Source: a virus
IMG/VR virus record: IMGVR_UViG_3300049927_000050
Coordinates: 1 to 26,669 of that record
Length of the DNA stretch: 26,669 bases
Direction: 5' to 3' (one strand)
Both the position numbers and the translations under genes were made by a program. This document shows, piece by piece, positions 1,978-23,280 of the stretch. Position 1 is the stretch's first letter; every line of letters begins with the position of its first letter. The notes beneath the pieces were generated by a model. That model saw only the letters and a list, made by a program, of their open reading frames with translations, searched no databases and was not told the DNA's origin.

Positions 1978-1989
1978 TACGGTGACCCC
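1978..1989 (+). promoter_or_regulatory. Leaderless-type -10 element for the endolysin gene
   Basis: TACGGT (1978-1983) is followed by exactly six bases and then the ATG at 1990. TGA precedes the hexamer, giving a TGN extended -10. No Shine-Dalgarno lies between. The same arrangement recurs before seven other genes in the window. Confidence 0.55.
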
Positions 1990-2934
1990 ATGCGCGCGCT
2001 CGTCCCCCTCCAATACGCGGGCTCGGACATCTCCGAGCACCAGCGCGCCATTGATATTGCGGGCTACGCCGCGGAATACCCGCTCGTCATCATCAAGGTG
2101 AGCGAGGGAAGCACGTACGAAGACCCCGAATATGCCCACTTTGCAGGGGAAACTGGAGAAACCCCGTACCGGGGCTTCTACCACTTCTCTACGCACTCTG
2201 ACGCGCAGGCGCAGGCCACCAATTTCGTCTCTCTGTTACGCAGAGAAGGTTATTTACCGCTGAAACCGGGCGATTTCCTCATCATCGACAGCGAGAAGAG
2301 CGACGGCACGGAAGTGCCGGACGCAATAACGGACGCTATTCAGGCCGATGTGCAGATTGCGAGCCCCGAGAAGCCCGTTTGGCGCTACGGCTACCGCTCC
2401 ATGTGCCACCGTTGGCGGGACAACGGGTACGCCGGGCCGCTGTGGGTTGCCAGCTTCGACGTGCTGGAAGACGCACAAGCACTTGGCGCCGTGCTCGACC
2501 AATACGGGATAGCGGACAGCCTCATGCCGTTCTACAACGGCGACATCGACGTGAACCGCGTGCTCGACCTTGACGCCTTCCACGCGCTAACCTACCCGTC
2601 TATCACCCCGCAGGAGACTCAAATGGAAATCACGACCCCTCTCACGATCAAGGACCACGACGCTGCGGGCAATCCGACTGTCGACTACCCGACGAACGTC
2701 GGCAATACGCTGGTCTACATCCACGACGGCGTGATGCGCACGCTTGGCAAGGCGACATCCGCCGCCACAGACACGCAATCCCTGCTTGCAGAGATTGTGA
2801 GCCTCAAGAACATCGTGAATGCCCTCGTGACGCTCCAGACGACCGCTCCGGGCGCCCCGCCCCTCGTGATCGACTACGCGAAGCTCTCGAAGGCCGTGGC
2901 CGACGAACTGGCCTACCGCCTGGCGCCAAGGTAG
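1990..2934 (+). CDS. Endolysin, GH25-family lysozyme with extra C-terminal domain
   Basis: 314 residues. The first ~200 residues look like a glycoside hydrolase 25 (Chalaropsis-type) muramidase: SDISEHQ with Asp13 near the N-terminus, VIIKVSEG at the second strand, GFYHF, then LIIDSEKSD with the acidic pair Asp100/Glu102, and a late FYNGDIDVNRV corresponding to the family's final strand. GH25 enzymes cut the MurNAc-GlcNAc beta-1,4 bond of peptidoglycan. Residues ~205-314 are an extra domain with a short beta part (TLVYIHDGV) and an alpha-helical end (SLLAEIVSLKNIVNAL, then DYAKLSKAVADELAYRL), a plausible wall-binding or oligomerising module. No signal peptide or membrane segment is seen, so release would need a holin; a candidate lies at 21047-21286. 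The start is fixed by the -10 element six bases upstream. A second in-frame start is possible at 2623. Confidence 0.9.
   Translation: MRALVPLQYAGSDISEHQRAIDIAGYAAEYPLVIIKVSEGSTYEDPEYAHFAGETGETPYRGFYHFSTHSDAQAQATNFVSLLRREGYLPLKPGDFLIIDSEKSDGTEVPDAITDAIQADVQIASPEKPVWRYGYRSMCHRWRDNGYAGPLWVASFDVLEDAQALGAVLDQYGIADSLMPFYNGDIDVNRVLDLDAFHALTYPSITPQETQMEITTPLTIKDHDAAGNPTVDYPTNVGNTLVYIHDGVMRTLGKATSAATDTQSLLAEIVSLKNIVNALVTLQTTAPGAPPLVIDYAKLSKAVADELAYRLAPR
2612..2625 (+). promoter_or_regulatory. Internal Shine-Dalgarno and in-frame ATG within the endolysin gene
   Basis: AGGAG at 2612-2616 is followed by six bases and an ATG at 2623 that is in frame with the endolysin (codon 212). Initiation here would give a separate 103-residue C-terminal protein. 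The position coincides with the boundary between the catalytic domain and the extra domain. Confidence 0.4.
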
Positions 2935-2943
2935 AGTGGCGTC
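2932..2943 (+). promoter_or_regulatory. Leaderless-type -10 element
   Basis: TAGAGT (2932-2937) overlaps the TAG stop of the endolysin gene and lies six bases before the ATG at 2944. There is no Shine-Dalgarno. No good -35 is visible. Confidence 0.5.
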
Positions 2944-3276
2944 ATGGCAACCACGATCACGGCGTTCACCGATGTCAAGGGCAACAAGACCTTTCCAGTA
3001 CGCGGCACTGTCGGTACGGCTGAGGCGCTCGTCTTCAACAACCTGGAAGGCTTCGCCCGAGTGCGCGTGCTCAACAACGACCAGACCGCGGTCAATAGCG
3101 TAGCTATTGGGTTCGCTTCTGGAACCACAGTTGGGAGCGGCTATCTCGTGTACGGCGGCACCACGCTCAACAATGGCGTCGACTTCTACTTGGCGCCCGG
3201 CGAGAAGCTCTACGCCATCGCCGCGGCAGACCGCGACGTGACCTTCATCTGTTGGCCGAACTGCAACCAGGGCTGA
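2944..3276 (+). CDS. Small beta-rich protein, probable virion component
   Basis: 110 residues, not recognised as a named family. The sequence is rich in glycine, valine, threonine and alanine with alternating hydrophobic residues (VRVLNND, AIGFASGTTVGSGYLVYGG, DFYLAPGEKLYAIAA), suggesting a compact all-beta fold. It has no signal peptide, membrane segment or catalytic motif; one pair of cysteines lies at the C-terminus (ICWPNCNQG). It sits between the endolysin and the terminase genes in a virion-gene block and has its own leaderless-type -10 element. A head decoration or fibre accessory role would fit composition and position, but this is only inference. Confidence 0.6.
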   Translation: MATTITAFTDVKGNKTFPVRGTVGTAEALVFNNLEGFARVRVLNNDQTAVNSVAIGFASGTTVGSGYLVYGGTTLNNGVDFYLAPGEKLYAIAAADRDVTFICWPNCNQG

Positions 3277-3277
3277 G

Positions 3278-3293
3278 TGCTACCCTCTGCCGC
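3278..3293 (+). promoter_or_regulatory. Extended -10 element for the terminase genes
   Basis: TGCTACCCT (3278-3286) is a TGN-extended TANNNT hexamer ending seven bases before the ATG at 3294. It matches the TGCTAYYNT form found before the small basic protein, capsid and 11841 genes, but here the start codon is close enough for a leaderless transcript. Confidence 0.5.
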
Positions 3294-3776
3294 ATGGCTA
3301 CCACCCCCAAGCAACTGCCGGTAGAAGAGCGCTGGACGCTCTTCTTCGATTTCCTCTCCCACGGCGTGATGCCCTTCACCGCTGCGCGCCGCTCGGGGCT
3401 CAGTGCCGGGCAACTCAACTACCGGCGCAAGATGGACCCCTTGCAGCGTGCGCGGGAGGATGAAGCAATCGAGATGTACGCCGAGCACGTCGAGCAATAC
3501 ATCATCGACGTTGCGATGGGCACTCAGAAGCCCGACAAAGACCGACTGAACGCCGCGCAAGCGTGGCTCAAGGTGCGCAATAAGCGTGTATGGGATGCGC
3601 CGAAGGAAACCAACATCAACGTGCACCACACGCTCGAATTGAAGAGCGGTGACGACATCAAAGCACTGCAAGCGACGTTGCTGGAGCGCCAATCACGCCT
3701 CGCGTTGCCTGCGGGGAACGATCCCGACATTATTGACGCGGAAGTGATCGAAGATGACGACGATCCAGCTACTTGA
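3294..3776 (+). CDS. terS: Terminase small subunit (probable)
   Basis: 160 residues, beginning MATTPKQL. An in-frame TTG at 3252 would add 14 residues inside the upstream gene; the ATG at 3294 is preferred because it sits just downstream of a -10 element like other starts here. The N-terminal third contains a helix-turn-helix-like stretch (PFTAARRSGLSAGQLNYRR), followed by helical segments with many charged residues, a NAAQAWLKVRNKRVWD segment and an acidic tail (DAEVIEDDDDPAT). A DNA-binding N-terminus, helical core and acidic C-terminus fit a small terminase subunit, which recognises the packaging site and delivers DNA to the large subunit. The strongest argument is location: it overlaps the large-subunit gene by 23 bases. 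Sequence alone would not prove it. Confidence 0.75.
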   Translation: MATTPKQLPVEERWTLFFDFLSHGVMPFTAARRSGLSAGQLNYRRKMDPLQRAREDEAIEMYAEHVEQYIIDVAMGTQKPDKDRLNAAQAWLKVRNKRVWDAPKETNINVHHTLELKSGDDIKALQATLLERQSRLALPAGNDPDIIDAEVIEDDDDPAT

Positions 3777-5448
3777 TGCCGCACTCATCGACCTGATGAC
3801 GGTCGAAGAGAAGCAAGAATACGCCAAATATCTCCAGAAACAGGCCAATTTGGCCGATTTATGGACGTATATCAACAACGTGAGCCCCGAAATCGTGCCG
3901 TACGACAACCTCGTGGTGTTGTGCGAATACTTGGACGCATTGCTCGATGGACGGCTCTACAAGAGCGGTCCAGGCCCCATTCCGGTCAAGATTGGCGAGC
4001 GCGTCGAGCGATCTGGCCGCAGAGAGATCACTGTCCCCATACTTGTCCACCCCGAAACGGGCGAGAATGTGGTCTACAACCTGGCAATTTACGAACCACC
4101 GCGACACGGCAAGTCCCTCGTCGTGTCCGAGCACTTTCTCGGCTACGTGGGCACCAAATACCCCGGAACCAAGATGGCGAACGCGTCCTACGGGGATGAT
4201 CTCTCGTTGGAGCTTGCAAAGCGACTCGTGAAGAACATCGAAGACGGCAAGCCGATGTACGGCGAGGGTGTTGTAGGTGGATTGAACGCCAGCAAGCTCT
4301 CGTGGGAGATGACCAACGGCTCGAAGTTCATTGCAGGCGGGCGGGCGAGCGGCTTCACCGGCCACGGCTGGCAAGTGGGTGTTGCCGACGACTTGCTCAA
4401 GGACCGTATCGAGGCCAACTCTCCCACTACTCGCAGAACGGTGCACGAGTTCTGGTTGGACACGTGGTGGACCCGCCGAGAGCCGTGGCACGACGGCACG
4501 CCAGCGCGCGCCATCCTGATGAACACGCGGTGGCACACCGACGACGTGTCCGGGCGTGTCGTGGAGGGTGCCGACGACTGGTGCGTACTCCGTATCCCCG
4601 CTTTGGCCGAAGAAGACGACATTCTCGGCCGCGCGCCCGGCGAGGCGCTCATTCCCGAGATCCTCAATAGTGAGCAGCTATTGACGCTCCAAGAGCGCAA
4701 CCCACAGGGCTTTGCGGCTCTGTACCAAGGGCGCCCGTTCCTCGCGGGCGGCAACTTGATCCACGAGCCGTTCAACCACTGCTCGGTGGAGGGCGGGCTC
4801 TACAAGTTGGTCGACCGCAACGGCGCGGTGCTCTACGTGCCCGAAGCAGACTGCTTCCGCTTCCAAGTGATTGACCTTGCGGCAACCGAGAAGAAGACAT
4901 CGGACTGGACCGTCTTGGGAACCTTCGACGTTACCCCGGAGGCCCCGCGAAAGATCATCCTGCGCGGGCTCAAGAGAATGCGCATCACGACCGAAGACCA
5001 TGAGGGCATGGTTGTCGATGAGTACCGGCGAATGCGTGCCCGCTTCATTGCCGTTGAAGACCGCACGTTCGGGACCAACCTCATCAATAGACTGCGCAAA
5101 CGTGGCGGGCTTATTGTCCGCAGCGTGGAGGCCGACAAAGACAAAGTGACGCGCGCGCTCCCGCTCGATTCTCTGATCCGCGGCGAAGAGTTCTGGTGGA
5201 TCGGTGAGGCCAGTTGGGTCATGGACTTGGAAGAGGAAATCTTGACGTTCCCCGACACCGAGCACGACGACCAAGTAGACGTGTTGGCGTACGCGGCGCG
5301 GGTCTTCGAGCAATTGCCCCGGCACAACCACTACGGCCGCAACGACCCCCCGGCGAACATGGGCGAGCGCATTCAGCGCCACATGGAGGGGCTCAGGAAG
5401 ACCGGCAGGCGCCGCTATGAGCACCCCGAGTTGGGTTCCTTGCGGTAG
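3754..5448 (+). CDS. terL: Terminase large subunit (packaging ATPase and nuclease)
   Basis: 564 residues. The ATPase domain has a Walker A YEPPRHGKS at residues ~113-121, Walker B VGVADDL with the acidic pair at ~212-213, and the coupling motif MNTRWHTDD. The RNase H-like nuclease domain carries the three expected acidic sites: VIDLAA (Asp374), FIAVEDR (Glu435/Asp436) and EHDDQVDVLAYA (Asp505/Asp506). All catalytic residues I can identify are intact. The enzyme pumps DNA into the prohead through the portal and cuts the concatemer at start and end of packaging. The PPRHGKS form of Walker A is typical of several headful-packaging phage families, but packaging type cannot be settled here. The start overlaps the small-subunit gene by 23 bases, so translation is probably coupled. 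It is separated from the portal by five small genes. Confidence 0.95.
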   Translation: MTTIQLLDAALIDLMTVEEKQEYAKYLQKQANLADLWTYINNVSPEIVPYDNLVVLCEYLDALLDGRLYKSGPGPIPVKIGERVERSGRREITVPILVHPETGENVVYNLAIYEPPRHGKSLVVSEHFLGYVGTKYPGTKMANASYGDDLSLELAKRLVKNIEDGKPMYGEGVVGGLNASKLSWEMTNGSKFIAGGRASGFTGHGWQVGVADDLLKDRIEANSPTTRRTVHEFWLDTWWTRREPWHDGTPARAILMNTRWHTDDVSGRVVEGADDWCVLRIPALAEEDDILGRAPGEALIPEILNSEQLLTLQERNPQGFAALYQGRPFLAGGNLIHEPFNHCSVEGGLYKLVDRNGAVLYVPEADCFRFQVIDLAATEKKTSDWTVLGTFDVTPEAPRKIILRGLKRMRITTEDHEGMVVDEYRRMRARFIAVEDRTFGTNLINRLRKRGGLIVRSVEADKDKVTRALPLDSLIRGEEFWWIGEASWVMDLEEEILTFPDTEHDDQVDVLAYAARVFEQLPRHNHYGRNDPPANMGERIQRHMEGLRKTGRRRYEHPELGSLR

Positions 5449-5468
5449 GGCGCCGTGCACCCTATCTT
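5440..5468 (+). promoter_or_regulatory. Promoter candidate for the paired small virion genes
   Basis: TTGCGG (5440-5445), a 17-base spacer and TATCTT (5463-5468) resemble a vegetative sigma-factor promoter. The same -35 hexamer, TTGCGG, occurs before the capsid gene. About 30 bases of leader with GAGG at 5488-5491 precede the ATG at 5501. Confidence 0.45.
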
Positions 5469-5500
5469 GTGCCTATCACCGATCTCAGAGGTTCCTTCCA

Positions 5501-5836
5501 ATGGCACTCACTTTCACAGTCCCGGCCGAGAACATCCGCCCGTATCACATCGTTGGCGATCTCAAGCTCGTCATGCGCAAGGTCACGTTCGACAACTCGT
5601 ACCCGACTGGCGGCGAGGCTGTGGCGGCGTCCGACTTTGGGCTCGCCAAGATTCTGTGGATTTCCGTCAACGCCCAAACCGATGTGCTCACGAAGCACGT
5701 ACGATGGGTCGAGTCGGCGGGCGCCCACACCCTGCTCATCGCGATCGAAGACTCGATCTCCGGTATCGAGGCTCAGGCCGGTAACGCCACCGACCAATCC
5801 GCTGTCTCTGTGCACCTAATGGTGTTCGGGTACTGA
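5501..5836 (+). CDS. Small virion protein, decoration-like, copy 1 of a tandem pair
   Basis: 111 residues starting MALTFT. An earlier in-frame ATG at 5417 lies within the terminase gene and is rejected; the chosen start has GAGG nine bases upstream and matches the initiation region of the next gene. The protein is all-beta in character: KVTFDNSYPTGGEAVAASDFGL, WISVNA, VRWVESAG, LLIAIEDSISGI, then AGNATDQSAVSVHLMVFGY. It is roughly half identical to the following gene. Small capsid-surface or virion proteins with a FDSSYPTGGE-like segment are familiar to me from other phages, which supports a head decoration or similar role; I did not verify this. No enzymatic motif is seen. Confidence 0.65.
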   Translation: MALTFTVPAENIRPYHIVGDLKLVMRKVTFDNSYPTGGEAVAASDFGLAKILWISVNAQTDVLTKHVRWVESAGAHTLLIAIEDSISGIEAQAGNATDQSAVSVHLMVFGY

Positions 5837-5854
5837 TCCAAGGAGGATCTTCCA

Positions 5855-6199
5855 ATGGCACTCACATTCACCAAACTCCCCTCTGCGGACCCGTACCTTC
5901 GGCTTGGCCGCGGGGACACGGTTCTGTGGGTCGGCACGATCACGTTCGACAACTCGTACCCGACGAACGGCGAGGCAATTGCTGCCTCGGACTTCGGGCT
6001 CGACTCGATCACGTTCGTCTCGGTCAACGCCGCGGCCACCCCGGTGACCAAGTTCGTGCGTTGGGATGAGGCCAACTCGAAGCTCATCGTCTTCATCGAA
6101 GACTCGATCTCGGGCATCTCGGCCGAAGCTGGCAACGCCACCGACCAATCGGCCGTCAAGGTCGCCGTCATGGTCGTGGGCCGCAAGGTCGCCGCCTGA
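5855..6199 (+). CDS. Small virion protein, decoration-like, copy 2 of a tandem pair
   Basis: 114 residues. The start has one of the strongest Shine-Dalgarno sequences in the window, AAGGAGG, eight bases before the ATG. Conserved blocks with copy 1 are TFDNSYPT(G/N)GEA, AASDFGL, VSVNA, VRW, IEDSISGI and AGNATDQSAV. The regions that differ are residues 7-25 and the C-terminus, where this copy has GRKVAA in place of GY. The similarity extends into the ribosome-binding region (CTTCCAATGGCACTCAC in both), so the duplication included the translation start. A strong ribosome site, a terminator at 6230-6254 and compact beta composition suggest an abundant virion protein. The exact role is not established. 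Confidence 0.65.
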   Translation: MALTFTKLPSADPYLRLGRGDTVLWVGTITFDNSYPTNGEAIAASDFGLDSITFVSVNAAATPVTKFVRWDEANSKLIVFIEDSISGISAEAGNATDQSAVKVAVMVVGRKVAA

Positions 6200-6226
6200 C
6201 CAGTCAAGCTCTTTCCACTGAGCTAC
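6193..6226 (-). other. tRNA-like D-arm fragment (possible tRNA remnant)
   Basis: The minus strand of 6208-6226 reads GTAGCTCAGTGGAAAGAGC, which has the form of a bacterial tRNA D-arm (GCTC stem, AGTGGA loop, GAGC stem). The next bases, TTGACTGGTCAGG, look like a tRNA-Arg anticodon arm (CTGAC-loop-TCAG) that has lost most of its loop. No T-arm or acceptor partner follows, because the sequence runs into the end of the coding region at 6199. It is therefore a fragment at most. Confidence 0.4.
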
Positions 6227-6229
6227 GAT

Positions 6230-6254
6230 GGGGCCGGGCACAACGCCCGGCCCC
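6230..6254 (+). terminator. Strong GC stem-loop after the paired virion genes
   Basis: GGGGCCGGGC (6230-6239) and GCCCGGCCCC (6245-6254) form a perfect 10-base-pair stem with a five-base loop. It is followed by TTCCC rather than a full U-run. It lies 30 bases after the stop at 6199 and 22 bases before the next start. Confidence 0.6.
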
Positions 6255-6276
6255 TTCCCAATAATGGAGTCCCCCA

Positions 6277-6624
6277 ATGCCCGCAGACACCGAAACCCGT
6301 GACGGCAACTGGCGCGTCATCAACAATTTCGACCATCAGTCCCGCAGCCCCTACTCGTCGGCCTCCGGGCAGACCAAGCGTCCGGCCGACCCCGGCATCA
6401 TCCGGTCCATGCGGGGTTACATCGAGCAGGAGGGCCACTTCGACATCACGTACTACGATGCCGAGCAACTGGCCCAGCTACTCGGTTGGGCGCCGCCCGA
6501 GAAGCTCCACGAGCTACTCGACCGCATTGCCGAGCTTGAGGTAGAGGCCGAGCTTGTCCGCTCGGTCACGTGGAAGAAGGCGCAAGACGCCGTACGTATG
6601 GCGAGCGTGCGCGATGCCAAGTGA
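6277..6624 (+). CDS. Hypothetical protein
   Basis: 115 residues, not recognised. The start has GGAG seven bases upstream (6266-6269). The N-terminal half is polar (NNFDHQSRSPYSSASGQTKRP) and includes PGIIRSMRGYIEQEG; the C-terminal half is predicted helical with a leucine- and glutamate-rich stretch (PPEKLHELLDRIAELEVEAEL) that could form a coiled coil. No membrane segment or catalytic motif is visible. It follows a terminator-like stem-loop and opens a run of three small overlapping genes that ends at the portal, which suggests one translational unit. It could be a minor virion or assembly factor, but nothing in the sequence decides this. Confidence 0.6.
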   Translation: MPADTETRDGNWRVINNFDHQSRSPYSSASGQTKRPADPGIIRSMRGYIEQEGHFDITYYDAEQLAQLLGWAPPEKLHELLDRIAELEVEAELVRSVTWKKAQDAVRMASVRDAK

Positions 6625-6901
6625 CACGAGCTACTACTTCAACCTCAACCGCATCCCCGGCACAGACGCTTGGATGATCGAGTACATCCGGTACGAGATG
6701 GACTACACCGACGAAGGCGCCTTCCTCAGCGGCACGACGCACATTCTCACCACTGAGGGCTGGTACGAGCTTGCTCCCGGCCAGCCGTACCCCGCCGACA
6801 TCCCGATGATCACCGGCAAGGACATGCGCCACTCCAGCACTCAGACGGTCACCGAGATCGTCAATAGGGTGTCCGACCTATTGAAAGTGAGTACCCTGTG
6901 A
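6614..6901 (+). CDS. Hypothetical protein
   Basis: 95 residues from the ATG at 6614, which overlaps the previous gene by 11 bases; the upstream in-frame ATG at 6554 would add a basic 20-residue stretch lying wholly inside the neighbouring gene and is less likely. The protein is aromatic- and acidic-rich (YYFNLNRIPGTDAWMIEYIRYEMDY), with a later THILTTEGWYELAPGQPYP segment and a C-terminal helix (TVTEIVNRVSDLLKVSTL). I do not recognise the family. No signal peptide, membrane span or catalytic motif is seen. Tight overlap on both sides implies coupled translation with its neighbours. Confidence 0.6.
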   Translation: MPSDTSYYFNLNRIPGTDAWMIEYIRYEMDYTDEGAFLSGTTHILTTEGWYELAPGQPYPADIPMITGKDMRHSSTQTVTEIVNRVSDLLKVSTL

Positions 6902-7167
6902 CCCCGACAATGGACATATCGAGCGGGCTTGCTGTGGCCTTCTTCGCCGTACTCAACGTGGTCCAGGTATTCGTGGCCGCGCGCGAGCGCCACGAGATGC
7001 GCAAGGACCACGCCGCGCGCATTGCTGTGGTGGAGGAAGACCGGCGTGCGCTGACCGCTGCCGCACTCCAGGCGCCGAACCCAATAGCGGCGAGCGCCAT
7101 GCGACGGGACATGCGGGTGGCGAACGTGGTGGAAGCCAATCCCGTCAACATCGAGGGCTTGAGCTAA
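6898..7167 (+). CDS. Small membrane protein with cytoplasmic-type tail
   Basis: 89 residues from a GTG at 6898 that overlaps the previous stop by four bases (GTGA); an ATG at 6910 would remove only four residues. One hydrophobic segment near the N-terminus (GLAVAFFAVLNVVQVFVAA) is a likely membrane helix. It is followed by a highly charged helical region (RERHEMRKDHAARIAVVEEDRRAL) and a low-complexity end. One helix plus a charged coiled tail is seen in some holin or spanin partners and in other small phage membrane proteins, so a lysis-accessory role is possible but unproven. It lies immediately before the portal gene, an unusual place for a lysis gene. The minus-strand protein at 23002-23268 has the same general build. 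Confidence 0.6.
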   Translation: MTPTMDISSGLAVAFFAVLNVVQVFVAARERHEMRKDHAARIAVVEEDRRALTAAALQAPNPIAASAMRRDMRVANVVEANPVNIEGLS

Positions 7168-7176
7168 GCTGTCGAA
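7165..7176 (+). promoter_or_regulatory. Leaderless-type -10 element for the portal gene
   Basis: TAAGCT (7165-7170) overlaps the TAA stop of the preceding gene and is followed by six bases and the ATG at 7177. No Shine-Dalgarno is present. The identical hexamer at the same distance precedes the genes at 12324 and 16908. Confidence 0.6.
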
Positions 7177-9312
7177 ATGGCCGACAAGACGTACACACCC
7201 GCGACTGTGCCCAAGGGCGTCCCCTCCAGCGCCAAGAAGGGCTCAGGGCACGACCTCACGCTGCCGGACAACGAGGCGATGGAAGTCCTAGAGCGGTGGA
7301 AGCACGGCACCGCGGCGATGACGCAAGAGCTATTCGACTACTACCTCAACTTCCACTTCATCGACGGCCAACAGTGGATCTGGTGGAACACAGAGCAGCG
7401 ACGGCTCGACCAAGTGCCGCGCGACCCCGAGCGAGTCCGGCTCACGATCAACCGCATGAAGGCCAATAGCCGCACGATCATGGGCAAGCTCATGCAGCGC
7501 CCGCTTGCCTTCGAAGTGCTCCCGACCGACGCCGACGACTCACACGTGCGTGGCGCCAAACTCGGGGAGTCACTTCTAGAGAACGTGCGCATCCAACACC
7601 GTTGGGAAGAGATGCGCGAGATGGCTTATTGGGCAACGTGGAAGGCGGGCACGTGCGCTATTGCGGTCATGTGGGATGCCGAAGCGGAAGATCCGACACA
7701 GAGCCCCGAAGACACGGGCAACGTGCAGCGCGCCAAAGGTGACACTCGTGAGAAGGTCTACAACCTCTCGCAATTCACGACCGAGCCCGGCACCGACGAC
7801 GCGGAGCTTGCACGCTACTGGATCACGCTCGACCTTCTCCCTCCGAAGGAAGCGCAAGCCAAGTACCAGCTTTCGGAAGAGCCACCCGCTGACGGCAACA
7901 CCGCAACGACTCCGTTCTTGCTCAAGCTGAACGACAAGCAAACTGGCAACGCAATGACGCCACTCACGCAAGTCTTCACGATGTACGAGCGCCCGAGCTA
8001 CCTCAATAAGAAGGGGTGCGTGCGTGTCGTTATTGACAGCAAGTGCGTGTTCGACGACGCGTGGCCGTACCCGTGGAAGGACCATCTCAACATGGTCATC
8101 ATGCGCGAGACGAAGATGGAGAACCGTTGGTCGGGCTCCACTATTGTCACCGACGCGCGGCCTATTCAAACGGCCTTCAACCAGTCGTGGTCGAACATCG
8201 TCGAGCACATGAAGCGCGCCGGTAACGCCCGCCTCGCCATGCCGCAGAGCGCGGTTGACATGATGGAAGACCTGTCGGATCTGCCGGGCGAGATCATGCC
8301 GTACCCGGACGGACAGGTCGCGCCCGAGTGGAAGTCGCCGCCGCAGATGCCTCAATGGTGGGTCGACCAGCCTGGCAAGCTCGCGCAAGAGCTTGACGAC
8401 GTGATGAGTGTGCACCCGATCTCGCGCGGCGACGCGCCGCAGAATATCGAGTCCGGCTACGGGCTCTCGATTCTCGCGGAGCACGACGCCACGCCGACCG
8501 AGCGCCTGCTCAATGAAACGCAGATGGCCTTCTCGAAGTTGGCGACAATGGTGCTCAAGCTCTACGAAGAGGAAGTGGGCGACAAGCGCAAGAGCATCGT
8601 CTCTGTGCCCGGCCAACCAGCGCGCACACTCTCGTGGTCCGGGGACGACTTCCGCGGCCAAACGACGGCAATAGTGCCGCAGGATCAGATCATCCCGCGC
8701 TCCCGCGCTGCGCTCATGGAGACGGGCAAGGAAATGGTCAAGATGGGCTTCATCTCGAACATGGCCGACTTCGCATTCTTCACCGAGATGCCGTCGAGCC
8801 GGATGCTCTTGGAGGGGCTCAACCCCGACATCGCTCGGGCGCGCCGCGAGAACGCAGGCTTCGCCGTTGGGCGGCAGGCTGTCCCTCGGGAGTGGGATGA
8901 CCACGAAGTGCACATCATCGAGCACCACCGTTATTGCAAGAGCGTCGACTTCGACCTACAGCCCCCGGAAGAGCAAGCTGTCATCGAGGCGCACATCCAA
9001 GCGCACGTCACCATGCAGGCCGAGAAGATCGCGAAGCAGCAAACGGCTGGCGCCATCGGCGGGCCGGGGCTGGCAGGCGCGCCGACGACGGCCGGTCCTG
9101 CCGCGCCGCCCGAACTGAACCCTCCGAACACTGGCGTACCCGTGCCGCCCGGCCCCCCGCCCCCGGCCGGTCCCCCGTCTATTGGAGCGATGGGTGCTAT
9201 TCTGCCGGGACAGGAACCGGCGCCCGCAGCGGGCGGCGGGGCCAACCAAGAGCAGATCTTCAACGCCCTTCTCCAGCAAATGAATAACCCCAGCCAACAA
9301 GCCCCCAAGTAA
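7177..9312 (+). CDS. Portal protein
   Basis: 711 residues. The N-terminal region has the usual look of podovirus-type portals: FHFIDGQQWIWW, then RVRLTINRMKANSRTIMGKL, with the early RPLAFEVLPTD segment and LGESLLENVRIQHRWEEMREM helix. A middle section has WSGSTIVTDARPIQTAFNQSW and later GYGLSILAEHDATPTERLL. Twelve copies form the ring at the capsid vertex through which terminase pumps DNA. The last ~100 residues are low-complexity and very rich in proline, alanine and glycine (VPVPPGPPPPAGPPSIGAMG), ending in a short helix (QEQIFNALLQQMNN); this tail probably lies inside the head or contacts scaffold or ejection proteins. The next gene is the scaffold, then capsid, the classic order. The long minus-strand reading frame inside it is a GC-driven shadow. 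Confidence 0.9.
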   Translation: MADKTYTPATVPKGVPSSAKKGSGHDLTLPDNEAMEVLERWKHGTAAMTQELFDYYLNFHFIDGQQWIWWNTEQRRLDQVPRDPERVRLTINRMKANSRTIMGKLMQRPLAFEVLPTDADDSHVRGAKLGESLLENVRIQHRWEEMREMAYWATWKAGTCAIAVMWDAEAEDPTQSPEDTGNVQRAKGDTREKVYNLSQFTTEPGTDDAELARYWITLDLLPPKEAQAKYQLSEEPPADGNTATTPFLLKLNDKQTGNAMTPLTQVFTMYERPSYLNKKGCVRVVIDSKCVFDDAWPYPWKDHLNMVIMRETKMENRWSGSTIVTDARPIQTAFNQSWSNIVEHMKRAGNARLAMPQSAVDMMEDLSDLPGEIMPYPDGQVAPEWKSPPQMPQWWVDQPGKLAQELDDVMSVHPISRGDAPQNIESGYGLSILAEHDATPTERLLNETQMAFSKLATMVLKLYEEEVGDKRKSIVSVPGQPARTLSWSGDDFRGQTTAIVPQDQIIPRSRAALMETGKEMVKMGFISNMADFAFFTEMPSSRMLLEGLNPDIARARRENAGFAVGRQAVPREWDDHEVHIIEHHRYCKSVDFDLQPPEEQAVIEAHIQAHVTMQAEKIAKQQTAGAIGGPGLAGAPTTAGPAAPPELNPPNTGVPVPPGPPPPAGPPSIGAMGAILPGQEPAPAAGGGANQEQIFNALLQQMNNPSQQAPK

Positions 9313-9324
9313 AGGACCACTGTC

Positions 9325-10104
9325 ATGCCCGCAGGACCGATCCCCGACAAGACCGCGACCGGCACTCCCGTCCCCCCGAGCGAAGGCGGTACGCCTACGC
9401 CCGAGCCGCAGAGTGACGCTGCCGCCGCTGGTGCGTCCAATGCGGACACCGGCACCGGACTCAACGACGAGGCGAAGACGAGCGAGCTACGGCGCGCACG
9501 TGACGAAGCAGCCGCGCACCGCGTGAAGCTGCGCAAGTACGAGGAAGCCTTCGACGGGTACGAGGATGCCGATGTCGACAAGGCTCTCACGATGTACCGC
9601 AACTTGCTCAAAGACCCCAAAGCGGCGCGCAAGGACTTCAAGGCCACCATCGAGAACCTTGAGAAGTGGGCCGAAGAGAACGACGTGGATCTCGAAGATG
9701 AAGGCGACGCGCCACCGGCCAAGGGCAAGACCAAGGCCGAGCCGAAGTACCTCACCGAGAAGGAACTGAACGCCGCGCTCGACGCGCGCGAGAAGGACCG
9801 CATGACCAACGATGCCGTCAAGGAGATCAAGAAGACGGTCGAAGGTTGGGGCTACAAAGAGGGCTCGTGGCAATACCAGTCGATCCTCTTCCTCGCCAAC
9901 AAGGACGCCAACGGCGACATCACGAAGGCCAAGGAGCAGTTCGAGAAGGATCTCAAGGAACTCTCCCCGAAGGAGCGCGCAACTCACCCGCCAGCGTCGG
10001 GTAAATCTGGCGGCGCGCCGGGCGCTCCCGCAGCGCCCCCACCGGCCGAGAAGTTCGACGCTCGGCAGAGCGCCCTCAAGCGCTTGACTGAGGCGGGCTT
10101 CTGA
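9325..10104 (+). CDS. Scaffolding protein
   Basis: 259 residues with AAGGA eight bases before the ATG. The composition is typical of a capsid scaffold: a proline-, threonine- and alanine-rich N-terminus, a long charged helical centre (SELRRARDEAAAHRVKLRKY, IENLEKWAEENDVDLEDEGD, KELNAALDAREKDRM) and a proline-, glycine- and alanine-rich linker before a short basic-amphipathic C-terminal helix (DARQSALKRLTEAGF), the part that often contacts the capsid protein. No protease motif is seen. It lies between portal and major capsid genes. It should direct prohead assembly and then leave or be degraded. Assignment rests on composition and position rather than on a conserved catalytic motif. Confidence 0.85.
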   Translation: MPAGPIPDKTATGTPVPPSEGGTPTPEPQSDAAAAGASNADTGTGLNDEAKTSELRRARDEAAAHRVKLRKYEEAFDGYEDADVDKALTMYRNLLKDPKAARKDFKATIENLEKWAEENDVDLEDEGDAPPAKGKTKAEPKYLTEKELNAALDAREKDRMTNDAVKEIKKTVEGWGYKEGSWQYQSILFLANKDANGDITKAKEQFEKDLKELSPKERATHPPASGKSGGAPGAPAAPPPAEKFDARQSALKRLTEAGF

Positions 10105-10208
10105 GTCAGACTTGGGTTGTGGCATAACACGCAGGTGCCAGCGCCGAAACTGGAGAACAGTGCACGCTCCAGGTGTAAGCGTGTGGTTAGAAAGCGTGCG
10201 TCACACAA
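10105..10208 (+). other. Gene-free interval, possible structured RNA
   Basis: The 163-base gap after the scaffold gene (10105-10267) holds no convincing gene. Possible pairings before the terminator are GTTGTG (10116-10121) with CACAAC (10204-10209) and CTGGAG (10150-10155) with CTCCAG (10167-10172). Competing pairings exist, so this is only a hint of a folded transcript end. Confidence 0.25.
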
Positions 10209-10234
10209 CGAGCCCCGGCTACGTCCGGGGCTCG
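10209..10234 (+). terminator. Stem-loop terminator after the scaffold gene
   Basis: CGAGCCCCGG (10209-10218) pairs perfectly with CCGGGGCTCG (10225-10234) around a six-base loop. No U-run follows. A promoter-like TGCTATTGT starts directly after the stem, so this is a terminator-then-promoter junction. Confidence 0.65.
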
Positions 10235-10243
10235 TGCTATTGT
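10235..10243 (+). promoter_or_regulatory. Extended -10 element before the small basic protein gene
   Basis: TGCTATTGT fits TGCTAYYNT, shared with sites at 3278, 10430 and 11808. A leader of about 24 bases with AAGGAGG (10256-10262) leads to the ATG at 10268. No -35 hexamer is apparent, as is usual for extended -10 promoters. Confidence 0.5.
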
Positions 10244-10267
10244 GGCGACTATTGCAAGGAGGCCGTC

Positions 10268-10438: not shown

Positions 10439-10453
10439 GACATCAGTCACCGC

Positions 10454-10537: not shown

Positions 10538-10562
10538 CCACATCTCACAAGGAGAACCTCAA

Positions 10563-11756: not shown

Positions 11757-11782
11757 TCCCGCAAGGGCTGGGGGGCGGTACG

Positions 11783-15265: not shown

Positions 15266-15277
15266 TAGGATGGCGTC
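15266..15277 (+). promoter_or_regulatory. Leaderless-type -10 element
   Basis: TAGGAT (15266-15271), six bases, then the ATG at 15278. No Shine-Dalgarno. The spacer GGCGTC is identical to that before the gene at 2944. Confidence 0.55.
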
Positions 15278-15943
15278 ATGGCACAGATCAACGACGCAGC
15301 GGTCGGGCGACTCAATGCGAGCCCGGCCACGACCAAGAGCATTCAACGCCAACTCGGGCTACCCGAAACCGGGCAGTGGGATGAGACGACGGACAACGAG
15401 TACGCCGCGTGGGCGAAGTCGATGGGATACGACCCGAACTTCGGCATGGACAACAACGCTACAAACTGGAACACCGCGCAGGCGGCGCTCGCACAGCGCG
15501 CACCGGACACTGGCGGCAACCCGGCGATGGAAGACCCCGCGTACGCCGCGTATCTCCGAACGATGGGCATTCAACAGGCCGACATCAAGAACGAGATCAT
15601 CGCCCGCACTACTGCGGTGCAAGATGCGATCAACCGCAACGCAGCGGGCTACGGAGAGCAGAAGGCAACTCAGACCAAGAACGCCGGGCTCGACTTTCAG
15701 AGTCGTGGGCTCGGCAATAGTGGCGCGCAATACCAAGCGCAAGATAAGGCGGTTGCCGATGTCACCTACCAACAGAATCAAGACGAAGCTGCGCAGCGCG
15801 ACGCGCTACAAGTCGCAAATCGAAACTCCCAACAAGCTCTTTCGCAATTGGGTCAGAAGCGTGCCGAGATGGAGTTTGACGCCCGCTCCCGAATTGGGCA
15901 GAAGCGTGCACAGCAAACTTACAACCCGCTCGGAGCTTCGTGA
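15278..15943 (+). CDS. Internal virion protein candidate with peptidoglycan-binding-like start
   Basis: 221 residues. Residues ~15-50 (TKSIQRQLGLPETGQWDETT, then a helix) resemble the short three-helix peptidoglycan-binding repeat whose consensus is IQ..LGL..TG.wd..T; this is a weak match by eye. The rest is polar, very rich in glutamine, alanine and asparagine and almost certainly helical (QNQDEAAQRDALQVANRNSQ). Such glutamine/alanine-rich helical proteins are typical of podovirus internal (ejection) proteins. It is translationally coupled (TGATG) to the next protein of similar composition. No lysozyme catalytic motif is visible. Confidence 0.6.
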   Translation: MAQINDAAVGRLNASPATTKSIQRQLGLPETGQWDETTDNEYAAWAKSMGYDPNFGMDNNATNWNTAQAALAQRAPDTGGNPAMEDPAYAAYLRTMGIQQADIKNEIIARTTAVQDAINRNAAGYGEQKATQTKNAGLDFQSRGLGNSGAQYQAQDKAVADVTYQQNQDEAAQRDALQVANRNSQQALSQLGQKRAEMEFDARSRIGQKRAQQTYNPLGAS

Positions 15944-16895: not shown

Positions 16896-16907
16896 TAAGC
16901 TGTCCGC
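16896..16907 (+). promoter_or_regulatory. Leaderless-type -10 element for the large ejection-type gene
   Basis: TAAGCT (16896-16901), six bases, then the ATG at 16908. No Shine-Dalgarno is present. The hexamer and distance are identical to those at 7165 and 12312. Confidence 0.6.
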
Positions 16908-19900
16908 ATGGCAACCAAATGGGGCTCTGGTGGTGGCGGCACCAATTGGGGCTCGACCGGCAGCACGACTGCTAACCCCACGACCGACGCCCCCGTTGAA
17001 GCAACGGGAGAGGCGCCATACACGCAGACGCTCCAGACCAATAAGAAGGCAGTGGCCGAGAGCCTATTGCGGCTCTACCGCGCCGGAGATGTGGAGGGTT
17101 ACAAGAAGGCTCTCCCGCAGGTGCAACAAGTCTTCACTCCGCAAGACATGCACGCCTATGGGCTCGACCGCATTTCTGTGGTTGGCACGCCTGGCAACTG
17201 GTTGGGCGGCGCCAAGTCGCAAATCCAGAAGGCCGAGACTTCGTTCGGCACGAGCACGGCCGGGCAGCTTCTCGGCAAGGTGATGACTAAGCTCGACGCT
17301 CCGCGCACCGTCGCCACCGCGGGCTTGCGTCAAGGTCTGTGGGGGTTCGGCAATGTTGCCGAGAAGATTTCAGGCGGGCGCATTCAAGGCGGCGTCGAAG
17401 GTGGATGGAACCAGTTTCGGGAAGACCTTGGCAATCACGTCACTCCGAGCGACATCTTCAAGTCGGCAAACGCCAATCTCGAATCCAAGGGCGCGGCGCC
17501 GATCACAGGCGGCGCCACTCACAACTTGCAGCGCGCTGGCGGCGACGTTGGCATGGTCGTGCTCGACCCATTGACAGCCTTGGGCGGCACGAGCAAAGCG
17601 ACAGAGGCCATGATGGAGACTATTGGCCGAGAGGTTGGTGAGTCCACCGCGAAGAAGATTGCGGTTCACGGCCTTGAGGGCGGCGTCAAGAAGGGCATCA
17701 TCAGCGAGGCCGAACACCAAGCTGTGCTCGAAGTGATCGACCGGCAGGCCGCAGAGCTTGCCGCTAGCGCCGAGAAGGGCACTCTCAAGCGGGGTCTTCT
17801 TCCCGGCACGATCAAGCGGCAGACCTTCAATCTTGCGGCGTCCGGGGACGTGGCCGAACTCGCCGCTCGCGCGGAGACGCGGCTCATTCGCGAGGGCCGC
17901 GCCGGGCTCAAGTTCGGTGTGGGCGCGGGCAAGCGTACGATCATCCCGTCCTACATCGACGGGCACAGCTTCCTCAACCCTCGCCTGTACGCGGCCGACA
18001 TCATGCGCGGCGGCGAAGTGGCGGCGTCCGCTGCCGAGCCGGGGCTCGCGACCGGGCTCGCGGGCGTGAAGACTATTGAGCCGCTCAACGAGAGCGAATT
18101 GAAGAACATGCTCTTCACGGCAGACAAGGCCGCGCCAGAGGCCAAGAGCGCCGTAGTCACGGTTCCGCCCCTCACCCCCGCCGACGCCGAGCACTTCGTC
18201 ATGCGTAACGCAGACGGCAAGGCGGCGGGCATCCTGTCGATCAAGGACAGCAAGGTGGAGGCGCTCTACGTCAACAAGGCTCTCGCCCCGGAGGCCCATG
18301 CCGCTGACAAGCTCTACGCAGCCGCTCAGGCAGCCGGACACGACGTGTCGGCGCTCGGCGCTGACGAGCTTACCGTCGCGGGCCGGAAGGCCCGTGAGGG
18401 CTTCCTAGAGCGTCAGGGCGGGGCTCTGACCGTGGACAAGGCACTGGCGCAGGGTGAGCGGGGCTCGGCGCTCCAGGCACTTCCCCACACGGCCGAGCAG
18501 ACCGGGCTCTTCCCCGCTGAGAAGGCAGCCGACCAGCCGTGGCTCAATAAGACCGCAGAGGTTACCCGGCGCAACCCACTGGACGTTCTGCGCCAGAGTG
18601 GCGTAGGACAGGCTGTGGGGTCCGCTCTGGCGCCACGGTCCAGGGTGACGGCAGAGTCGGGAGCGTTGGCGAGCAAGGCGCTCTACAGGGCTCAGGAGAC
18701 GACTGGTGCCAGTATCGCCCAACAGACCCACGACCTGTGGCTCCAGTTGGGCAAGACGAGCGACAAGGGCATCGCTGCGCTTGAGAAGGGCGCCCCGAAG
18801 CCTCTCGTGGATGCCCTGCCCTCTCTGGCCGGGCTCAAGGGCCGGGAGGCATTCAACGAGATGATGACGGCCGTGGCCGAGCAACGGCTATCCCCCGACA
18901 CTATTGCCGCCGTGGACGCCCTCAAGGGCAAGCCCGGCGCGCTCACGAAGGCAGCCAACGCTATTGCCACCGCGGCCGAGCGCGGAGGCGTGGTAGCTCA
19001 CCCGGCACAAGAGGCGCTCACGGCGGCGGGCATCGAGGCCAAGCCGACAGTAGCCAAGATCCTGTCCCCTACGGGAGAGGAAGTTGCCCGCGGAGACGCC
19101 GGGCTCAAGCTGCGCGAGGCGCTCGGGATCAAGCCGGGCGAGGAACTCAAGGCGGGGTCCGACCTCACCACTCAGGCCGTCAAGGTCATGCGCTCGGAGA
19201 AGGGCATCAAGGCGCTCAACGACGCGCTCGTGGAGCGGCTCGGGCTCAACCCCGGCACCAAGCTCTTCCACGAAGACGTGGTTGCCTCTGTGGCGCTGCG
19301 CTCGCGCGCGACCTTCGAAGCCGCGGCGATGGACAACATGTACCGCGGGCTCGCGAACACGATGGTCGATCACAATGTTCCGCTCATCTCGATTGTGGAG
19401 AAGGGCGATAGCGCAGCCGCCAAGGCCGCGGCCGACAAGAACTGGATTCGCCTTCCCGGCAAGCAGGCGTCCGCTGGCGACATCTACGGCCCGTCATCGG
19501 TGATGAACGAACTGTCCAAGGTCAACGACATCGTGATCAACGACGAAGCGATGAAGGGCTTTCGCAAGTTCCTTGACGGATGGAACGGTACGTGGGCGTC
19601 ATACGCGATCAACCCGTTGCCGTTCGGCACGGGCTTCCACGCGCGCAACGCCACGGGCAACGTGCTTCTGTCCTTTCTCGGTGGCCTAACGAACCCGTCG
19701 AAGTTTGCCGAAGCCGCCAGGGTGCAACTCGATCTCGCGAAGGTGCGCCGTCTCATGTCACACGAAGGGCTCGCCTTCGACCAGGCGCTTGAGCAATCCG
19801 GTATCAGCAACTACTCGAAACACATCATCACTAACGGTCGAGCGCACGGCGTCATCTCCGCAGGCTTCTTCGCGGATCTCGACAACTACGATCTGGAGCG

Positions 19901-21050
19901 GATGCTCAACGGCCAAGGACAGTCGGTCGGTCAGAAGGTCGGCTCATTCATCAAGGACAACAAGCTATTGCAGGCGAATCGTCGACTTGGCGATGTGGTG
20001 GAGAATAACGCACGTGTTGCACTATTCATGGACTCGCTGGAGAAGACGGGCTCGGTCACGTACGCTGCCGACACGGTGAAGAAGTACCTATTCGACTACC
20101 AGGATCTCACGCCTTTCGAGCGCCACAACATGAAGTCGCTCAACCGCTTCTACACGTTCATGCGAAAGAACACCGCGGTGCAGTTGTACGCGCTGGCGCA
20201 CGACCCCTGGAAGCAGAAGCTCATCATGATGGGTGAGAGCGCTCTCTACAAGGACGACCCCAACGCGCCGATACCCGACTACGCGCAGAAGACCGGGTAC
20301 AACGTCTCTCGCTTCCTACACGGCGGCAAGGGCGTCGACGCGCTCGGCATGAACATCGACACGCCGCTCGACAACGCAATCAAGACGCTCGACCCCATCA
20401 CTCAAGCCGTCACGATGGTGCCGGGCCTGCGTAGCATCGTCCCTCCACAATACCGATCGGACAAGCAGCAACTCACGAGCGCACTATTGAATAGTCGCTC
20501 TGGTGGGCCGCAGGAGTTTGTCAACTTCCTCTTCGAGACGGCGACGGGCAAGGACACGTTCTCGGGCAAGGACATCTCGAAGGAGAGCGGCAAAGATACC
20601 TTCAATAGACTAGCCAACGCGTTCCTGCCGTTGTACGGCAAGGCGCAGCGCGGGCTTTCTGGCACTGTGGTTGGCGAGAGCGCGCAGCCGGGCATGGACA
20701 AGCGACTGTCGGTCATGCAGGCATTGACGGGCTGGAACTTTCTCCCGCTCACCGACAAGCAGCGCAATCAGATTGCATATGTCACGGCGCAAGAGCTACA
20801 GAACTCACTCACGAAGCTCAAGGATCAAGGCGTTGATGTTCCGTCGTACACCGACCTTATTCGGTTGGGGCTCGCGCCGGATGTCTCAAAGCTCAATAAG
20901 CCGAACACGAAGACGAAGCAACGCACCGGCTCACAGGTCACCACCGATACGACGGCGAAGCTCAACGCCGCGCGCGCCGCGCTCGGGCAGACTTCACAAA
21001 CAGGGATCAAGCCACCGGCAACGAAAGCCGCCAAGAAGAAGTGGGGCTAG
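16908..21050 (+). CDS. Large ejection-type / internal virion protein (1380 aa)
   Basis: 1380 residues, the longest gene in the window. It opens with a glycine-, serine- and threonine-rich disordered stretch (WGSGGGGTNWGSTGSTT), followed by long alanine-rich helical regions. Residues ~420-505 contain a segment reminiscent of a GNAT acetyltransferase (AAGILSIKDSKVEALYV, then ADKLYAAAQAAGHDV and REGFLERQGG). Residues ~895-1120 hold the most conserved-looking part, including FHARNATGNVLLSFLGG and LTPFERHNMKSLNRFYTFMR, a type of segment I associate with the C-terminal part of large virion proteins injected with the DNA. The C-terminus is basic (KAAKKKWG). No lysozyme or protease triad can be assigned. 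It should travel in the head with the DNA and enter the cell. The role is inferred from size, composition and gene order. Confidence 0.7.
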   Translation: MATKWGSGGGGTNWGSTGSTTANPTTDAPVEATGEAPYTQTLQTNKKAVAESLLRLYRAGDVEGYKKALPQVQQVFTPQDMHAYGLDRISVVGTPGNWLGGAKSQIQKAETSFGTSTAGQLLGKVMTKLDAPRTVATAGLRQGLWGFGNVAEKISGGRIQGGVEGGWNQFREDLGNHVTPSDIFKSANANLESKGAAPITGGATHNLQRAGGDVGMVVLDPLTALGGTSKATEAMMETIGREVGESTAKKIAVHGLEGGVKKGIISEAEHQAVLEVIDRQAAELAASAEKGTLKRGLLPGTIKRQTFNLAASGDVAELAARAETRLIREGRAGLKFGVGAGKRTIIPSYIDGHSFLNPRLYAADIMRGGEVAASAAEPGLATGLAGVKTIEPLNESELKNMLFTADKAAPEAKSAVVTVPPLTPADAEHFVMRNADGKAAGILSIKDSKVEALYVNKALAPEAHAADKLYAAAQAAGHDVSALGADELTVAGRKAREGFLERQGGALTVDKALAQGERGSALQALPHTAEQTGLFPAEKAADQPWLNKTAEVTRRNPLDVLRQSGVGQAVGSALAPRSRVTAESGALASKALYRAQETTGASIAQQTHDLWLQLGKTSDKGIAALEKGAPKPLVDALPSLAGLKGREAFNEMMTAVAEQRLSPDTIAAVDALKGKPGALTKAANAIATAAERGGVVAHPAQEALTAAGIEAKPTVAKILSPTGEEVARGDAGLKLREALGIKPGEELKAGSDLTTQAVKVMRSEKGIKALNDALVERLGLNPGTKLFHEDVVASVALRSRATFEAAAMDNMYRGLANTMVDHNVPLISIVEKGDSAAAKAAADKNWIRLPGKQASAGDIYGPSSVMNELSKVNDIVINDEAMKGFRKFLDGWNGTWASYAINPLPFGTGFHARNATGNVLLSFLGGLTNPSKFAEAARVQLDLAKVRRLMSHEGLAFDQALEQSGISNYSKHIITNGRAHGVISAGFFADLDNYDLERMLNGQGQSVGQKVGSFIKDNKLLQANRRLGDVVENNARVALFMDSLEKTGSVTYAADTVKKYLFDYQDLTPFERHNMKSLNRFYTFMRKNTAVQLYALAHDPWKQKLIMMGESALYKDDPNAPIPDYAQKTGYNVSRFLHGGKGVDALGMNIDTPLDNAIKTLDPITQAVTMVPGLRSIVPPQYRSDKQQLTSALLNSRSGGPQEFVNFLFETATGKDTFSGKDISKESGKDTFNRLANAFLPLYGKAQRGLSGTVVGESAQPGMDKRLSVMQALTGWNFLPLTDKQRNQIAYVTAQELQNSLTKLKDQGVDVPSYTDLIRLGLAPDVSKLNKPNTKTKQRTGSQVTTDTTAKLNAARAALGQTSQTGIKPPATKAAKKKWG

Positions 21051-21918: not shown

Positions 21919-22991
21919 GCGGGGTCGGCGTACACGTAGGTCTGCGTGGTGATGCCGCGCTCGGGCGTCACGATGAAGAGCGCTTGGCGCGCCTTCTCGT
22001 AACCGAAGCCGGACGCCTTCGCGTACTCGTCGTATCCCTTGAGCGAGCCGTTGACAATGAAGTCCGGCCCGTAGAGAAGCTGATGCCAGTGGCCCATGAG
22101 CGCAATATCCCACGGCTTGCCCGTGCGGGCGTACATCTCGTGCTTGCGATGGAGGAACTTGAGCATGGAGGGATAAATCCCTCCCACACCACCGGCAGAC
22201 CGGAAGCCGTCCCCATGTGTCAGAAGGAACTTGGTGCCGTTGACATTGATGATCTGCTCGGGCGCCATCGAGATGCTGAACGTGATGCGCTTGTCGTCGC
22301 GCAGCGTGTCAGCCAACCAGTTGTAGAGCACCCACGCGTAGCTCGACTGCGCACGCTTCTTCATCTGCATACGCGGCGTGGTGCGGTCGTGGTTGCCATC
22401 CACCGTAGGCACGAACACCCGGCCGAACTCGTCGGCCAGCTTGCGCAGTGCGCTTGCCAAGACCGGCACCCAATAGACGATGCTCTCGGTTGGGAGAGCC
22501 TCGTTGGTCTGCGCCAACTCTGCGTGAATCACGCCGGTCAAGATGTCGCCCAATAGTGCGCACACGATGCCGTCGTATTCGAGGTTGCCGGTGTACCGCT
22601 TGCAGAACTCCACCGTGAAGTCGATGACACGTTGCAGCCGCTTCAACGCGATCTCGCGGTTGTACTCGTTCATGCCGTCCATCTCGTAGATGTCGACCAC
22701 TTCGTCAAGGTGGAGATCCGAGAGCATGAGGATCGGAGTCGCGACGTGTCGATCCTTTGACGCCGGGCGCGACACCCACTTCGGGATCTTGAGATCCTCA
22801 GGCTTGATCTGCGTGTAGCGCGACACCATCTGCTCGGCGCGGTCGCGCTCTTCGACCAGTTGCCTGATCTCCGCACGCAGCGCTGTCGCCTCATTGCGCT
22901 CGACAACCTTCTCAGCGTGTGACTTGGTGAGGGCGGGGGCCTTACCGGCGCGGCGCAGGTTGTATGCACGTTGAGCTTCTGATTGCGGCAT
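21915..22991 (-). CDS. Calcineurin-like metallophosphoesterase
   Basis: 358 residues with AAAGG seven bases before the ATG. All main motifs of the family are present in order: LMLSDLHLDE, LLGDILTG, VDGNHDR, LTHGDGF and LMGHWHQ, so the two-metal site looks complete. The first ~85 residues form a separate basic and charged helical region (EAQRAYNLRRAGKAPALTK, then ALRAEIRQLVEERDRAEQM) that may be a coiled coil or DNA-binding extension. Relatives include SbcD/Mre11-type nucleases as well as phosphatases and phosphodiesterases. The gene overlaps that of a DNA methyltransferase and follows the primase-helicase, so a role in phage DNA processing or host DNA breakdown is likelier than a metabolic role; this is inference. 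Confidence 0.85.
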   Translation of the reverse strand: MPQSEAQRAYNLRRAGKAPALTKSHAEKVVERNEATALRAEIRQLVEERDRAEQMVSRYTQIKPEDLKIPKWVSRPASKDRHVATPILMLSDLHLDEVVDIYEMDGMNEYNREIALKRLQRVIDFTVEFCKRYTGNLEYDGIVCALLGDILTGVIHAELAQTNEALPTESIVYWVPVLASALRKLADEFGRVFVPTVDGNHDRTTPRMQMKKRAQSSYAWVLYNWLADTLRDDKRITFSISMAPEQIINVNGTKFLLTHGDGFRSAGGVGGIYPSMLKFLHRKHEMYARTGKPWDIALMGHWHQLLYGPDFIVNGSLKGYDEYAKASGFGYEKARQALFIVTPERGITTQTYVYADPA

Positions 22992-23001
22992 GGAGGGCCT
23001 T

Positions 23002-23268
23002 TCAGCGACGGATCAGTTGGTCTTCGATGTAACGGTGTTCGCGGTCGTGTTGTTCCACGTACACCTTGAAATCTTCTTTGGTCACCATCTTGCTATTCAC
23101 TTCACAGAGCAGGCTCTTCACTACAGCATGGTCGTCACTCTGACTGTCAGCGCGTGTCTTGCTCTTGCGATCTAAACGCCATCCTACGGCGAGCACAGGT
23201 ATGACCACAACGGAGAGTGACATGAGATCAGAGTGCGCAGTCTCGAAGATAAGGTGCCAGATGCTCAT
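23002..23268 (-). CDS. Small single-span membrane protein, unknown
   Basis: 88 residues on the minus strand. One hydrophobic segment (SLSVVVIPVLAVGWRL, about residues 17-32) is followed by a charged tail (DRKSKTRADSQSDD, VTKEDFKVYVEQHDREHRYI) likely to form a helix. No signal cleavage site is evident. The start is fixed by a TAGTCT -10 element six bases upstream, inside the stop of the primase gene, and no Shine-Dalgarno is present. One-span proteins with a charged coiled tail occur among phage lysis accessories and membrane anchors. It lies between replication and modification genes, so function is left open. Confidence 0.65.
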   Translation of the reverse strand: MSIWHLIFETAHSDLMSLSVVVIPVLAVGWRLDRKSKTRADSQSDDHAVVKSLLCEVNSKMVTKEDFKVYVEQHDREHRYIEDQLIRR

Positions 23269-23280
23269 GGGTTCAGACTA
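23269..23280 (-). promoter_or_regulatory. Leaderless-type -10 element, minus strand
   Basis: On the minus strand TAGTCT (23280-23275) is followed by six bases and the ATG at 23268. A possible -35, TTGGTG, lies 18 bases upstream. It shows that the leaderless arrangement is used on both strands. Confidence 0.55.

Follow-up and report, generated by a model that had tools for sequence, protein, structure and literature searches.

How do the genes of a phage begin when a TANNNT hexamer, six or seven bases before the start codon, stands in the place of a Shine-Dalgarno site? Eight genes on both strands of the window analysed here are of this kind, and the first-pass annotation had proposed that the hexamers are −10 boxes of leaderless messages. 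The window is an entire IMG/VR record, a linear stretch of 26,669 bases with about 61% GC, and is a contig of a tailed phage. Its plus strand bears a tailed-phage late region (GH25 endolysin, small and large terminase, P22-like portal, major capsid protein, SU10-type adaptor and a 1380-aa protein), and replication genes lie on its minus strand (SSB-like protein, primase/helicase, exonuclease and methyltransferase). A tRNA search and an Rfam search of the window returned nothing at threshold. Just upstream of the primase gene, at 25803-25905 (minus strand), lies a tRNA-like remnant with a GGTTCGATTCC T-arm and GGACCC/GGGTCC ends, in which ARAGORN finds no tRNA and Rfam gives a weak tRNA-like match only.

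Eight hexamers and three kinds of gene start

All eight TANNNT hexamers are confirmed in the sequence, and the spacing of six bases (seven at 3294) that had been claimed for them is exact, the first T being located at −12 in seven cases and at −13 in one. On the plus strand, TACGGT (1978-1983) lies six bases before the predicted leaderless gene of the GH25 endolysin (1990-2934; PF01183, E = 1.4e-13), and TAGAGT (2932-2937), overlapping the preceding stop, lies six bases before a predicted leaderless gene of unknown function encoding 110 amino acids (2944-3276). TACCCT (3281-3286) precedes by seven bases a terminase small subunit-like gene (3294-3776; phrog_4044, E = 6e-4), which heads a probably coupled pair with terL (3754-5448; phrog_38). 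TAAGCT occurs three times on this strand, each time six bases before a gene predicted to be leaderless: at 7165-7170, overlapping the preceding stop, before the P22-like portal (7177-9312; PF16510); at 12312-12317 before the SU10-type adaptor (12324-12956; PF24175), whose following genes abut or overlap and are probably coupled; and at 16896-16901 before the 1380-aa protein (16908-21050), for which an ejection or internal virion role is probable. Upstream of the latter gene, TAGGAT (15266-15271) stands six bases before g20 (15278-15943), a predicted leaderless gene for a 221-aa protein of unknown function. On the minus strand, TAGTCT (23275-23280) overlaps the primase stop and stands six bases before the predicted leaderless gene of an 88-aa small membrane-like protein (23002-23268), in the slot 3' of the primase.

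In seven cases the open reading frame has no ATG, GTG or TTG earlier than the start given. At 3294 the ATG is internal, with an in-frame TTG (3252) 42 bases upstream of it, which makes this start the weakest of the eight. The gene caller used is a crude, greedy first-start caller that missed some genes, for example that at 15278 in the window. At three starts (2944, 7177 and 23268) the hexamer and the preceding stop codon overlap, which bears out the annotation's "several"; the other five are free of such overlap. Apart from the recurring TAAGCT, the string GGCGTC is repeated directly before ATG, twice in the window and once in the phage Shocker. The description of the set as leaderless virion genes fits some members but not all: the set includes the gene of an endolysin, that of a small membrane protein next to the primase and one of unknown function.

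The absence of a Shine-Dalgarno site from these starts is borne out by their weak pairing with the anti-Shine-Dalgarno sequence, averaging −2.8 kcal/mol against −7.2 kcal/mol at the other non-overlapping starts (Mann-Whitney p = 0.0025); the AGGA before 15278 belongs to the hexamer TAGGAT itself. Three classes of start can be distinguished among the roughly 28 genes of the window. The first comprises the eight TANNNT-led genes, with a spacing of six or seven and weak pairing, each separated from the gene before it by 9-18 bases. The second groups about ten other genes that do not overlap the upstream gene, with pairing that is stronger on average; the major capsid gene shows this mode of start, being Shine-Dalgarno-led both here and in most relatives. 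The third contains about nine genes that touch or overlap the gene before them, with coupled translation as the probable mode.

Two Shine-Dalgarno genes, at 10268 and 11841, possess a TANNNT 24 bases upstream, giving an 18-base leader with a GGAGG-type site and the same −10 geometry. A perfect 11-bp GC-rich hairpin (10208-10235, plus strand) is located directly before TATTGT (10238) and the short leader of the first, and a perfect 10-bp GC-rich hairpin (11783-11805, plus strand) directly before TATCCT (11811) and the short leader of the second. These hairpins probably mark transcription unit boundaries and, together with the TANNNT hexamers that follow them, fit a late region split into several transcription units with putative boundaries at these points. 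A perfect 10-bp GC-rich hairpin resembling them is also found at 6230-6254, in the gap before the gene at 6277, and is possibly a terminator lacking a long T run.

Within the window the association between hexamer and gene start is not due to chance. The 643 ATGs on both strands of the 26.7 kb were compared, and TANNNT-N6-ATG occurs at 7 of the 23 gene-start ATGs and at none of the 620 others (Fisher p = 3e-11), so that the equal frequency at random ATGs which the first-pass annotation named as evidence against its reading is not seen. A count made independently of gene calls gives 7 occurrences at spacing 6, while the other spacings average 1.5 (Poisson p = 9e-4).

Only the T, A and T of the motif are invariant, the other positions being variable. 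No −35 element was identified, TTGA or TTG not being enriched 16-19 bases upstream of 34 sites, and a generic sigma-70 scan of positions 1-14000 gave no match. The base at −1 is C in 17 of 28 cases against 94 of 303 (p = 0.003), with a preference for pyrimidines (p = 7e-4), statistics that rest on a first "clade" grouping which took in loci already seen to carry matches. A longer shared motif, GGCGTCATGGC, was also tried and rejected: TANNNTGGCGTCATGGC is found in 95 stretches of viral contigs against 88 for the pattern shifted by two bases, and is thus not commoner. In unrelated viral contigs TANNNTGGCGTCATGGC nevertheless coincides with a called gene start in 13 of 77 cases, and in 3 of 74 when the hexamer is displaced by two positions (p = 0.015); spacing 6 is again the peak among the remaining genes of these 13 contigs (6 against 1.0). 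It is therefore TANNNT at a spacing of six that carries the signal, rather than the longer string.

Recurrence in relatives and conserved slots

Capsid and primase relatives were drawn from IMG/VR and GTDB; a portal search of viral contigs found no relatives and a primase search of named phages gave no match. The spacing results rest on an unbiased grouping and not on the first "clade" grouping. Among primase relatives with GC of at least 0.5, picked by primase homology only and with promoters not looked at, spacing 6 was counted 10 times and other spacings 1.03 times each on average (p = 1e-7); for the eight nearest capsid relatives the figures are 6 and 0.35 (p = 2e-6). Relatives with only 27-45% protein identity carry the signal as well. 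No such peak appears in the AT-rich primase relatives or in a wider low-GC set of relatives (2 at spacing 6 against 4.3). Among phages with a known host, the Microbacterium phages Shocker (5 against 0.43) and Min1 (2 against 0.05) possess the peak, and Shocker, a capsid relative, carries TANNNT-N6-ATG at three annotated genes of the virion region. Mycobacteriophage D29 (0 of 62 genes) shows no peak at this spacing.

One conserved site is that of the gene directly 3' of the primase: among 15 distinct phages with GC of at least 0.44, the window counted, 11 carry TANNNT-N6/N7 there (window, L010-L015, L062, L063, L065 and L068). The exceptions are L021, L022 and L067, which have no motif, and L064, with a spacer of five (N5). 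Primases of these relatives are about 35-45% identical to that of the window. The window, L010, L012, L013, L062 and L063 have a gene for a small membrane-like protein in the slot. Pfam identifies an Amidase_2 endolysin there in L011, L014 and L015, although the curated cut-off is not reached in L011 and L014, and inspection of the proteins points to an amidase endolysin in L065 and L068 too. A 4-base overlap between the slot gene and the primase stop makes coupled translation possible in L010, L015 and L065. Shortly after the slot, L062 (9586) and L063 (13356) share a second syntenic gene of 85-86 amino acids led by TAGGCT-N6-ATG.

Other sites are conserved to differing degrees. For g20, all four members of the family (the window gene and the three detected homologues in L012, L013 and L063, 29-36% identical) possess TANNNT-N6 at the first start of the open reading frame, and L014 has a similar gene in the place of g20 led by TAAGAT-N6. 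Orthologues of the 1380-aa protein carry the motif with N6 in L063 and N7 in L013 and lack it in L012, L014, L064 and L068; Shocker gene 23449, near the 1380-aa gene in size and position, has N6. The portal orthologue in L023 is led by TAGCAT-N6-GTG, and the motif is absent from most portal orthologues examined. We put forward tentatively, at somewhat less than even odds, that some promoter-plus-start slots, chiefly that after the primase, predate the genes they drive, lysis-type genes having been exchanged behind a leaderless start, and that many small leaderless units make up the late region in this lineage of actinobacteriophages.

Probable leaderless messages and rival readings

We consider it probable, at roughly 0.87, that the hexamers are host sigma-A type −10 boxes giving rise to leaderless messages, mostly at the head of short units, in a phage of an actinobacterial host. 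The main (sigma-A type) RNA polymerase of the host would use the hexamer as −10 without a recognisable −35 box, and transcription would begin at the A of the ATG, since a TANNNT six bases before a start places the expected transcription start at the start codon. The leaderless mRNA would then be translated from its 5'-terminal start codon; most such starts would head a short transcription unit, with downstream genes read through start/stop overlap or a Shine-Dalgarno site. Promoter activity, the position of the 5' end and the host are what we infer from the sequence. The leaderless reading of the first-pass annotation draws support from the exact spacing, the weak Shine-Dalgarno pairing, the preference for C or a pyrimidine at −1 and conservation in distant relatives. 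By this prediction about a quarter of the genes of the phage, mostly with capsid, DNA-ejection or lysis functions, should be leaderless.

The hexamers might instead be accidents of stop codons, as a TAA or TAG shortly before the next start needs only a T four bases on to complete TANNNT. Such an origin would suit the three hexamers that overlap a stop, but not the five that do not, nor the spacing of exactly six, nor the lack of the site at non-gene ATGs. Moreover, the primase slot is kept in relatives, where its hexamer is often clear of the stop codon, and the peak at spacing 6 is absent from the Pseudomonas control phages YuA (0 of 47 genes) and D3112 (1 of 49). Chance combined with stop-codon overlap is hence rejected on the ATG test and the relatives, and hardly any credence is left to it. 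The dense packing of genes on one strand, where several neighbours overlap by 1-23 bases with no other signal, is what would be expected of long late operons in which genes are translated by re-initiation or by coupling to the gene before them, with the hexamers as weak or secondary promoters. The eight genes, however, never overlap the upstream gene and their gaps leave just enough room for hexamer and spacer, whereas the overlapping genes are without the motif, and conservation this deep speaks for more than residual activity; long operons are accordingly judged unlikely.

If the motif were a signal in translation, or some other DNA signal with no part in transcription, akin to the start-associated sequences known from actinobacteriophages, the fixed distance to the start codon and the repetition of hexamer-plus-spacer strings would likewise be explained. 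Start-associated sequences and repeated upstream motifs in mycobacteriophage cluster K and Microbacterium clusters EC and EF (PMC7302621) are similarly repeated just before many starts, but they are long conserved blocks, those at the ribosome-binding site being of 13 bp, or lie 21-30 bases upstream. In the window no such 13-bp block is found at the ribosome-binding site, and nothing beyond the TANNNT core and its spacing is kept, a restriction to T, A and T that is the pattern of a −10 box. In Deinococcus radiodurans, moreover, an ORF-adjacent TANNNT alike in motif and position was shown by mutation to work as a promoter −10 (PMC12340547), although on bacterial genes and in another phylum. 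A signal unrelated to transcription is thus very unlikely, and promoters of leaderless messages are the preferred reading.

Leaderless expression has been mapped well, both in Actinobacteria and in phages of Thermus. Zheng et al. (2011, PMC3160421) count TA-led genes as leaderless and put their share in Actinobacteria and Deinococcus-Thermus at over 20% of genes, and mapped start sites of M. tuberculosis display TANNNT without a −35 motif and the same preference for C or a pyrimidine at −1 (Cortes et al. 2013, PMC3898074). The window resembles these bacterial genes in the first T about 12 bases before the start, in the lack of a Shine-Dalgarno site and of a −35 box, and in a share (8 of about 28) near that figure; it differs in that the genes are phage virion and lysis genes, leaderless by prediction. 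Thermus phage phiYS40 produces middle and late mRNAs of which most lack a leader (reviewed in PMC3594737), which makes it a comparable phage with many leaderless non-early genes, but its host probably belongs to a phylum other than that of the host here, and in the window the predicted leaderless starts are a minority among Shine-Dalgarno-led and coupled genes, the major capsid gene among the former. Since leaderless phage messages are known from phiYS40, and a search of the published literature (subscription journals being largely outside its scope) turned up no paper describing leaderless virion or lysis genes as characteristic of actinobacteriophages, this is a known mechanism in a new setting: the mechanism is familiar from Actinobacteria and phiYS40, and what is new is the phage lineage and the conserved promoter slots. 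For environmental phages such starts offer a host clue from sequence alone, and the choice of start codons in these genomes is corrected. The slots are also testable, and raise the question of why translation of the capsid gene is Shine-Dalgarno-led but that of the adaptor, ejection and lysis genes would be leaderless.

Host and remaining gene content

The host is most likely an actinobacterium, as suggested by the capsid and portal relatives and by WhiB in relatives. Capsid and portal matches among named phages with a stated host are all phages of Arthrobacter, Microbacterium and Cellulosimicrobium, with identities of only 21-29%; all records with a stated host are actinobacterial (11 of 11 for the capsid, 9 of 9 for the portal). 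WhiB belongs to an actinobacterial regulator family. It is encoded in the records of the replication-gene relatives L010, L012 and L068 and in MW202795, in a search that left out the window fragment, and among 14 control genomes in Corynebacterium only. The exonuclease of L010 is 73% identical to that of the window, and one GTDB relative sits in a Mycobacterium MAG. The capsid relative L052 (SKHG01000017.1), with 66% GC, is placed in a MAG labelled Candidatus Campbellbacteria, which may reflect mis-binning. Of the two host groups suggested by the first-pass annotation, Actinobacteria thus gain from these relatives and nothing was found in favour of Deinococcus-Thermus. Its view of the motif as a strong host indicator holds in one direction. 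The host of D29 is rich in leaderless genes, yet D29 lacks the motif, so absence of the motif says nothing on the host, and the motif alone is an unreliable test.

Some further features of gene content were noted. Upstream of the portal gene, 5501-5836 and 5855-6199 encode a paralogous pair of small proteins whose homologues in L024-L026 are located directly 3' of the capsid gene, indicating that the block has moved. Genes 1 and 2 (2-1971) encode apparently related tail-fibre-type proteins with an N-terminal part common to both, and gene 1 and the gene at 14712-15263 match the same protein of L029.
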